Of a stretch of 20,394 nt of DNA, positions 4,735 through 6,045 are shown piece by piece. The notes beneath the pieces are model-generated. The model searched no databases and was not told the origin of the DNA. It saw nothing but the letters and a program-made list of their open reading frames with translations. Origin of the DNA: a virus; IMG/VR virus record IMGVR_UViG_3300042560_001311, positions 1-20,394 of that record; one strand, 5' to 3'. The stretch's first letter is position 1. Each line of letters opens with the position of its first letter. A program made the position numbers and the translations under genes.

Positions 4735-5238
4735 GTGGATGACAACGGAACCAATCCTAGCACTAGCGCGGACGGCACGCAAGCCCTTTTTGTGGAAACC
4801 CGACAAATTTTTGGGGAGCCTGCCAGCAAGGCCAACAGCAGGAGACTTGTAAGGTTCGGAGGGATGTCCAGGCTGATCAAGAGCGAGAAGGCTTTGAGTT
4901 ATTCACAGGCGTTTCAACAGCAATGTGCCCCTGTGGATAACCCTACAACCCTGGATGTGTCCGTGGAGATCCACATCTGGTATTCCTCCCGAAGGCCGGA
5001 TCTGGACGAGAGCCTCATCTTGGATCTGCTTCAGGGAAGGCTCTATGTAAACGACAGGCAGGTCAAAGAGAAGCACATCTACTGGCATCAAGACAAGGAG
5101 TGCCCTCGGTGTGTCATCACGGTCAAAGAGATCCCGGGACAAAAAAAGACCCCGGGAGCGCGGCTCACCGGGGTCAAGACGCCAGGGGGGCGTCACAGGA
5201 GGGAGATCGCTCAAGCAACTGAGCGGAAGACAGTGTAG
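4735..5238 (+). CDS. rusA: RusA-like Holliday junction resolvase
   Basis: A 167-residue frame from GTG 4735 (good AAGGAG); GTG 4792 is an alternative that would remove ~19 unconserved residues. The RusA fold pattern is clear from ~residue 19: IFGEPASKANSRRLVRF, then RRPDLDESLILDLLQ (acidic residues D89 and D91), and LYVNDRQVKEKHIYW (D107). RusA dimers use these acidic residues and a Lys to cut four-way junctions symmetrically, which fits a neighbour of recombination genes. E. coli RusA is about 120 residues. Here the C-terminal ~35 residues after VITVKEI are basic and low-complexity and overlap a leftward terminator hairpin, so that tail may be dispensable. Confidence 0.8.
   Translation: MDDNGTNPSTSADGTQALFVETRQIFGEPASKANSRRLVRFGGMSRLIKSEKALSYSQAFQQQCAPVDNPTTLDVSVEIHIWYSSRRPDLDESLILDLLQGRLYVNDRQVKEKHIYWHQDKECPRCVITVKEIPGQKKTPGARLTGVKTPGGRHRREIAQATERKTV
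4754..4782 (-). promoter_or_regulatory. Leftward sigma70-type promoter for the recombination operon
   Basis: On the minus strand, -35 TTGCGT (4782-4777), a 17 bp spacer and -10 TAGGAT (4759-4754), preceded by an extended -10 TGC. Transcription would start near 4747, giving a ~24 nt leader with the AGGAGG site before TTG 4723. It lies inside the 5' end of the rusA frame, which favours a downstream rusA start or dual use. Confidence 0.5.
5141..5175 (-). terminator. Leftward Rho-independent terminator inside the rusA 3' end
   Basis: Perfect 8 bp arms GACCCCGG (5148-5155) and CCGGGGTC (5168-5175) with a 12-base loop. On the minus strand the stem is followed by seven T (5147-5141). On the plus strand no T-run follows, so it works leftward only. 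No leftward gene lies to its right before 5734, which points to an unannotated leftward transcript. Confidence 0.7.
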
Positions 5239-5602
5239 CTCAAAGGTCACCGCTTGCAAAGCCCTTCAACATCCATTAGGATGGCCCGGTCGTCTGTACC
5301 GAACACCTTCGGGGCTCTCACCTTAGGACAACCAGACTGAGCCTCTGGCCCCAGGTGCCGGGGGTGTTCAGTGCAGATGATCGTCAGGGCGCGTCAGCAA
5401 ATGGCCTGCATGGGCTGAACCCAAGAAACACCTCACCGATCAGAGCATGTGATCGGGCCTGTCAACGCCGGTGATCCAGGGGACCGGGCTGCATGTGTCC
5501 TCCAGCACAAGCAGCAAACGATGCGTACAGGGTGATGTGCGGGGCGGCAGGGACCAGCCGGTAGGACTTACCCACCTACTCAATCGGTCAGCATCCGATA
5601 CA
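5176..5602 (-). ncRNA. Candidate structured non-coding RNA region
   Basis: About 495 bp between rusA and the next gene (5239-5733) has no convincing coding frame but many short perfect inverted repeats. CGCTC/GAGCG at 5208-5225, CCGAA/TTCGG at 5299-5312, CCAGA/TCTGG at 5332-5348. GTTCAG/CTGAAC at 5366-5420 encloses TGCAG/CTGCA. CCGATC/GATCGG at 5436-5456, CCGGT/ACCGG at 5468-5487, GTAGG/CCTAC at 5561-5579. The leftward terminator just beyond suggests a minus-strand RNA of roughly 400-450 nt. However, two stems extend by G-U pairs only if read on the plus strand, so the strand is uncertain. I found no clear promoter and cannot match it to a known RNA family. Confidence 0.35.
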
Positions 5603-5633
5603 GAGGATGACAGGCATTACGGAGGATGACAGG
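5603..5633. repeat. Two 12-bp direct repeats
   Basis: GAGGATGACAGG at 5603-5614 and again at 5622-5633, centre-to-centre 19 bp. They lie in the non-coding stretch upstream of the gene at 5734 and could be tandem sites for a regulator. No partner protein can be named. Confidence 0.5.
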
Positions 5634-5733
5634 TTCTTCTCTGACTCTCTCAGGGAAGGACAGTGCAAGACAGGGGGGATCACCCAACCCCTGGCTTTGG
5701 CAGCCTCATGTCTAAACACAAACAGGTGCAGGA

Positions 5734-6045
5734 ATGGATGGGCAATCTCTGAGAGATGCAGGTGCTCAGCAAGCTCTGTTCAATGCCGGTGAAGATTGGC
5801 ATAGCGCAGCAGAAAAGATAGTGCTTGCATACCTGAAGGACATCGGTTACAAAGGCGCTCTGTTTGAGGAGTTGAGGCTCCGGGCGGAGCGAAATGGCTT
5901 CCCCGGCCCTCCTTCCCCAAACGCCTGGGGCGCGGTTTGTTTACACCTGTCCAAGCGAAAGCTCATCGAGAAGACTGGCGAGTACAGGAGTAGCCGTGCG
6001 TTGAAAAGCCATGCGCGGGCACAGCCCGTTTGGAGATCGAAGTGA
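5734..6045 (+). CDS. Conserved phage protein, possibly winged-helix, 103 residues
   Basis: Frame from ATG 5734; the AGG upstream is close and weak. Residues ~17-90 (GEDWHSAAEKIVLAYLKDIG, then PSPNAWGAVCLHLSKRKLIE) have the helix-turn-helix plus short hairpin rhythm seen in small winged-helix proteins common in phage early regions. The PNAWGAV...LIEKTGEYRSS segment is the most family-like part. The C-terminus is basic (SHARAQPVWRSK). It is the first gene of the rightward run leading to the primase-helicase. Its stop overlaps the next start as GTGA. A DNA-binding role is inferred. Confidence 0.6.
   Translation: MDGQSLRDAGAQQALFNAGEDWHSAAEKIVLAYLKDIGYKGALFEELRLRAERNGFPGPPSPNAWGAVCLHLSKRKLIEKTGEYRSSRALKSHARAQPVWRSK

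Follow-up and report, generated by a model that had tools for sequence, protein, structure and literature searches.

The gene-free stretch that follows rusA in a piece of viral DNA of 20,394 nucleotides, analysed here over its full length and called the window, holds a real structured-RNA gene, read from the plus strand between about position 5289 and about 5717. We are highly confident in the joint statement that this is a functional plus-strand structured RNA and that it is a divergent relative of an RNA family found in the course of this work. The family comprises covarying RNAs in at least 195 phage loci, is absent from Rfam 15 and appears to have been overlooked.

The structured RNA of the window

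The ORF list gives no gene-like ORF at 5239–5733, between rusA and a 103-aa ORF (Table 1), as a sequence-only reading of this DNA had claimed. On the plus strand, 5198–5725 folds at -216.1 kcal/mol, as against -191.1 ± 7.65 kcal/mol for shuffled sequences (z -3.27; 0 of 100 shuffles fold as well), whereas the minus strand gives an unremarkable fold (z -0.45; 30 of 100 shuffles as good). Among the variant pairs of the family 120 cells are G-U and 33 are A-C, a count partly biased toward the plus strand because the structure was drawn on that strand. The folding asymmetry, these counts, a promoter-like start and the co-orientation of downstream genes all favour the plus strand. Of the structured RNA that had been proposed for 5176–5733, with leftward transcription, the RNA-like fold is retained, the extent is redrawn and the direction is reversed.

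Table 1 Features in and around the RNA of the window
Feature	Position	Strand	Description
rusA	4762–5175	+	PHROG 34 / 140, RusA-like resolvase; neighbour, outside the RNA
Leftward intrinsic terminator	5141–5175	-	stem 5175–5168/5155–5148, then seven T at 5147–5141
Promoter-like pair	5254–5282	+	-35 TTGCAA 5254–5259, 17-nt spacer, -10 TAGGAT 5277–5282
Structured RNA	5289–5717	+	putative start from promoter spacing, 3' end from conserved tail
5' domain	5289–5381	+	long helix 5289–5312/5358–5381 (alifold and pair counts)
Inner hairpins of 5' domain	5319–5328/5350–5357 and 5332–5336/5344–5348	+	enclosed by the long helix
Conserved 5' module of the family	5382–5432	+	CGUCAGGGCGCG...GGCCUGCAUGGGCUGAACCCAAGAAACACC
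Helices of 5' module	H1 5387–5389/5420–5422; P2 5403–5406/5413–5416	+	P2 with UGCAUG loop
Central multihelix domain of window type	5433–5628	+	kept in six relatives, covarying pairs
Invariant long-range helix in central domain	5457–5464/5608–5615	+	GCCTGTCA/TGACAGGC
3' domain and tail	5671–5717	+	helix 5671–5678/5684–5693, then ...CTTTGGCAG..CATGTCTAAA
103-aa ORF	5734–6045	+	PHROG 27658; downstream neighbour

The RNA is presumably transcribed from the promoter-like pair, whose two hexamers and 17-nt spacing are identical in all six window-type sequences while the spacer itself diverges. Each hexamer agrees with the consensus at four of six positions, and a simple scan made no call there. The putative start would lie at about 5289 in the window and near GTTGTCGT in the relatives.

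Eight other contigs carry an RNA of the window type, and six sequences were aligned, across which the RNA region is almost unchanged. The alifold structure comprises 135 pairs, with 97.6% of the pair cells kept (six relatives) and double-sided changes at 12 of the 135 pairs; slid structures are 35–45% paired. Further pair types showed no excess over shuffles in the window type (321/500), and the window-type fold is less strongly supported than that of the family core described below. Compared with locus L061, the RNA (5289–5700) is 90.5% identical and the neighbouring genes are 80.4% (exonuclease), 83.9% (rusA), 79.2% (103-aa ORF) and 82.1% (helicase) identical, the poorly aligned segment 6046–6526 (46%) having been left out of the comparison. 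The nested pairing of GTTCAG near 5366 with CTGAAC near 5419, singled out earlier from the sequence, is broken in three of the six aligned sequences (L254, L257 and L258); the other pairings are supported in the window type by alifold and pair counts.

Behind the conserved but weak promoter-like pair, the 5' helix of the window has the layout of the family's 5' domain and may correspond to type X, the one with the paired loop; the helix stretch GAACACC/GGTGTTC of the window is GACCACC/GGTGGTC in L061. Helix H1 is assigned in the window by homology, since the window-type alifold pairs 5383–5390 with 5694–5701. At 5600–5632, GAGGATGACAGG occurs in two near copies, adjacent to each other, one of which overlaps the TGACAGGC strand of the long-range helix. 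The helix of the 3' domain is invariant across the window type, and the tail resembles, by eye, the family tail CACCCTTGGRGAACCTATGTCTAAA.

The strong leftward terminator that had been noted upstream of the RNA is confirmed: its stem and run of seven T are conserved, with a compensatory change from A-T to G-C (GACCCCGG/CCGGGGTC in the window; GGCCCCGG/CCGGGGCC in L254, L257 and L258), although a simple scanner gave an overlapping weaker stem at 5157–5132. No partner promoter or gene was identified for it; one speculative role would be to keep antisense transcripts from running into rusA. The terminator, being real and conserved, would suit the earlier suggestion of a leftward RNA, antisense to rusA, that ends near 5141, but the minus strand folds no better than its shuffles, the G-U counts favour the plus strand and the RNA adjoins many other genes in the relatives, so that we consider such an RNA highly improbable. 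The C-terminus of rusA itself is uncertain, because the 3' reading frame differs among relatives, varying after about 5140 (5140–5238) through an A7/A8 run and indels.

The wider RNA family

When the region was compared by BLAST with phage records, a single 55-bp hit was obtained, in MW202484.1 and within a 'hypothetical protein'. An exact 20-mer at the centre of this hit, part of the 5' module, was found in 14 IMG/VR contigs that are otherwise dissimilar, and their alignment contained further conserved blocks 3' of the 20-mer. With looser patterns, three scans of viral contigs yielded at least 119, at least 120 and at least 119 stretches, and three variants of the 5' module anchored at least 196 loci, one of them spurious (L135). 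Before counting, L135, the protein-coding L020, the deleted copy L085 and near-identical copies were left out. The covariance model R2 matches all 195 non-spurious anchored loci (98/98 and 97/98 by batch, with L135 the sole miss); it was trained on 70 sequences, two of which (L179 and L282) lie outside the tested batches. Each of 15 virus records of 32–54 kb carries one copy of the RNA.

The family has a core of about 170 nt with exchangeable 5' domains. Among 66 non-redundant v1 loci it measures 168–177 nt in 60; the exceptions are L002, L020 (spurious), L029, L061, L085 (deleted) and the window. It is laid out as H1, P2 (with a UGCAUG loop), P3/P3a, P4, PK2, P5 and P6, followed by a conserved tail, and contains invariant unpaired blocks. 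H1 differs with the module (GGG/CCC, CCA/UGG or GAC/GUC), and PK2 is a six-pair pseudoknot in which the P4 loop pairs with a strand further downstream.

Covariation across relatives, which the sequence-only reading had named as a check, is strong in this core. In an alignment of 70 core sequences fitted to the covariance model, 97.2% of pair cells are standard and 36 of 38 pairs have changed on both sides; covariation was as high in 0 of 500 shuffles, and slid structures are 25–39% paired. With a MAFFT alignment of 46 sequences, 93.3% of cells are paired and 31 of 38 pairs are double-changed, including all six pairs of PK2, which are 100% paired. Unguided RNAalifold on the same 46 sequences found H1, P2, P3, most of P5 and PK2, with 17 double-changed pairs. 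In 62 of 127 loci, every frame of the 171-nt core is interrupted. A 3' hairpin, P7, stands by eye only, because its statistical test failed to discriminate (6/13 distinct arms; own locus 69/116 versus 34% cross-locus).

Most loci have an extra domain upstream of the core, behind a sigma70-like promoter: a -10 element matching at five or more of six positions is present in 56 of 70 loci (control 3.8%) and a -35 element of the same quality in 40 of 70 (control 4.8%). In the commonest 5' domain the loop of the first hairpin pairs with a loop about 60–90 nt downstream, and for 24 of 29 distinct 7-nt loops a perfectly complementary sequence is present within the same locus, compared with 126 of 6714 cross-locus comparisons (1.9%). 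Two further 5' domains were found on the same core. Types X, Y and Z number 73, 24 and 10, with none in 24 of 131 loci, as counted by a loose regular expression that is wrong for L012 at least and that files several visible X variants under 'none'. All three types end in a G+C stem and a U-run and are terminator-like, whereas no U-run follows the 5' domain in the window type. Some loci have no recognised 5' domain, and in L003 and L005 the core comes directly after an ORF. At the other end, the tail motif ACCC-[TA]-[TA]-[GA]-[GAC] is found at the expected position in 116 of 124 loci versus 9 in a control stretch. In L085 (3403–3511) an internal deletion joins the 5' module straight to the 3' tail.

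Although neither the window nor L061 was part of the model training alignments, the 5' module of the window scores 64.2 bits with model R1 and 53.1 bits with R2. Core stems P3–P6 and PK2 were not matched in the window (best 0.2 bits, for 5430–5800 with the 5' module removed), and the shared part, on which the proposed kinship draws, is therefore the 50-nt 5' module together with the layout of 5' domain and promoter and a tail matched by eye. A divergent RNA in L002 (1606–1867) likewise has the 5' module common to the family and a different downstream fold, which suggests that more undiscovered RNA types use the same 5' module.

Gene neighbourhoods and distribution

Genes for a Sak-like annealing protein and an exonuclease lie upstream in the window, and divergent Erf-type annealing protein and exonuclease genes are often found upstream in the family. 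The first downstream gene falls into 26 clusters across 131 non-redundant loci; it encodes replication initiation (PHROG 9474) in 61 of them and the major capsid protein in 10. It is co-oriented with the RNA in 114 of 117 assigned loci, while in L037 the RNA is followed by convergent ORFs. The 103-aa ORF of the window and the RNA are not tied to each other, since relatives of this ORF in L262–L269 (55–61% identity) are without the 5' module upstream.

In the capsid-type loci that were read, the capsid gene has its own promoter-like sequence after the RNA. Another conserved, possibly structured leader with its own promoter-like sequence lies between the RNA and the major capsid gene in L019, L026, L073 and L079; it is also present at about 3640–3790 of L278 (Methylophilales phage MEP301), and has blocks of the form AGCAAGCA..GGCCC..GGCATACC-like. 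MEP301, which shares 78.6% capsid identity with L073, is without the RNA at the same place. At E ≤ 0.01 no RNA was detected in the first 50 kb of MW574966, the first 50 kb of OR003939 or 20.0–34.8 kb of MEP301; the best match, in L279 (11.9 bits, E 0.031), was taken as chance.

No family member was found in plasmids. In bacterial genomes, sampled in overlapping sets, R1 matched 1 of 399 from the family of G016 (L281) and 1 of 399 from the order (L282), and R2 matched 0 of 369 from the class and 1 of 389 from the order of G470 (again L282, 39.8 bits). In a bacterial genome from the order of G016, a 37-kb contig carries one divergent copy together with Erf-like and large phage-like ORFs, read by eye; G016, the genome of L135, is labelled an uncultured Pelomonas, and its order would be Burkholderiales. 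Two matches were set aside, a partial one of 31 nt in L135 (20.4 bits with R1, no R2 match at 0.01) and one of 34 nt only in L281. A DNA-pattern scan of genomes gave 36 hits, none of them genuine, which were judged by eye to be protein-coding coincidences; most look like one enzyme gene (KQGA..FAHGLNVHF), which we take to be ketol-acid reductoisomerase.

In L001 (5908–6267, corresponding to 33533–33892 of MW202484.1) the annotated hypothetical protein UOF77725.1 coincides in part with the RNA, and its ORF is probably spurious. The RNA seems to have escaped notice, in part because its phages are uncultured and this ORF had been annotated in MW202484.1, the one GenBank phage record found with an RNA of the family.

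Possible function and comparison with known RNAs

The best explanation overall, to which we give somewhat better than even credence, is a self-contained folded RNA gene, kin to this family of tailed-phage RNAs and most likely trans-acting, not a protein-coding stretch or a switch dedicated to a single gene. Its own promoter would drive, rightward, a folded RNA of about 430 nt, with different 5' domains attached to a core made up of the hairpin/pseudoknot 5' module, stems, six-pair pseudoknot and tail; made during infection, the folded RNA or a ribonucleoprotein scaffold would act in trans. Trans action and the scaffold role are presumed, the former because the RNA turns up in one gene neighbourhood after another as an independent module; the varied gene contexts, the own promoter, the absence in a related phage and the one convergent case favour it. 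Taken by itself, trans action has in our judgement slightly less than an even chance, and we prefer it to a cis-acting leader, which we regard as unlikely if still worth serious weight. As such a leader the RNA would make up the 5' portion of an operon transcript; its 5' domain, which in many relatives ends in a terminator-like stem and U-run, would decide whether RNA polymerase, or a ribosome at GGAG..AUG in the tail, proceeds into the next gene. The co-orientation of the downstream gene, the G+C stem and U-run that end domains X, Y and Z, the frequency of replication initiation as the first gene and a tail, GGAGAACCTATG, whose SD-like sequence and AUG coincide in many loci with the beginning of the following ORF agree with this alternative. 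The 26 downstream clusters, however, show no constant link to one gene function, another promoter-like sequence stands between RNA and gene in capsid-type loci, convergent genes follow in L037, the tail motif is retained where the gene starts later or elsewhere, and the window type is without the U-run.

A transcript-processing RNA, either a ribozyme or a mobile one of intron-like kind, would account for the compact pseudoknotted core with its invariant unpaired blocks, for presence or absence between related phages and for loci without a recognised promoter-bearing 5' domain, but two stretches searched against Rfam at E 10 gave no ribozyme or intron match and no split gene was seen around the RNA, making this improbable. 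We give marginally less credence still to a DNA-level element, such as a replication origin or packaging site, that mimics an RNA: the frequent adjacency to a replication initiation gene is what such an element would lead one to expect, whereas the strand asymmetry of folding, the promoter-like start and the preponderance of G-U over A-C cells, partly biased as that count is, argue against it.

Returning to a trans-acting RNA, we tentatively propose a new class of large modular phage RNA with a core common to unrelated phages, a reading to which we lean less than to trans action itself. Such an RNA, with interchangeable 5' domains and its own promoter, would be a module made of RNA only that is placed between genes. 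The analogy of GOLLD and ROOL suggests that several copies may form a homo-oligomer, or that the RNA may capture a factor from the host.

At gathering thresholds, Rfam 15 has no match in the window or in 12 loci, and 15 further sources gave none apart from three tRNAs in L169. Only chance-level matches were obtained at E ≤ 10 for 4900–5900 of the window and 4300–5000 of L093, with GOLLD and ROOL not listed, in keeping with the earlier description of a structured phage RNA like these in spirit but not matched to them. The family was not found in literature searched by topic, a search that mostly excluded subscription papers. We rate the family as categorically new, because Rfam finds no match; its broad type has precedents.

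In phage lambda, P_R'-6S RNA-tR' is a promoter, a short structured RNA and a terminator that head a phage operon. This layout resembles the X, Y and Z 5' domains; the family differs in the conserved pseudoknotted core that comes next, and the window type in being without the terminator U-run. The c4 antisense RNA of phages, listed as RF01695 in PMC2864571, is also a structured phage RNA, with the differences that the family has no Rfam match and that no antisense target was identified here.

Nearest in kind are GOLLD and ROOL (PMC12286853). There, GOLLD is described as a large pseudoknotted phage RNA of unknown function, often near tRNAs, with a conserved 3' and a less conserved 5' region, and ROOL as a phage or prophage RNA, likewise of no known function, that contains several pseudoknots. 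The conserved core and exchangeable 5' domains of the family recall the 3' and 5' regions so described for GOLLD, although the family RNA has roughly half the length of GOLLD. With ROOL it shares the pseudoknot and a phage setting, and neither RNA is matched to it by Rfam. Proximity to tRNAs differs from both, being found in 1 of 45 loci scanned (L169) and not in the window; in L169 (5518–6236) tRNAs Met, Pro and Asn immediately precede the RNA, an arrangement described for GOLLD and ROOL. Those two are characterised by homo-oligomeric RNA cages, which the family RNA may also form. If trans-acting, the family RNA would join GOLLD and ROOL as a phage RNA machine of unknown purpose, one for which family alignments and a pseudoknot open to testing are already available.
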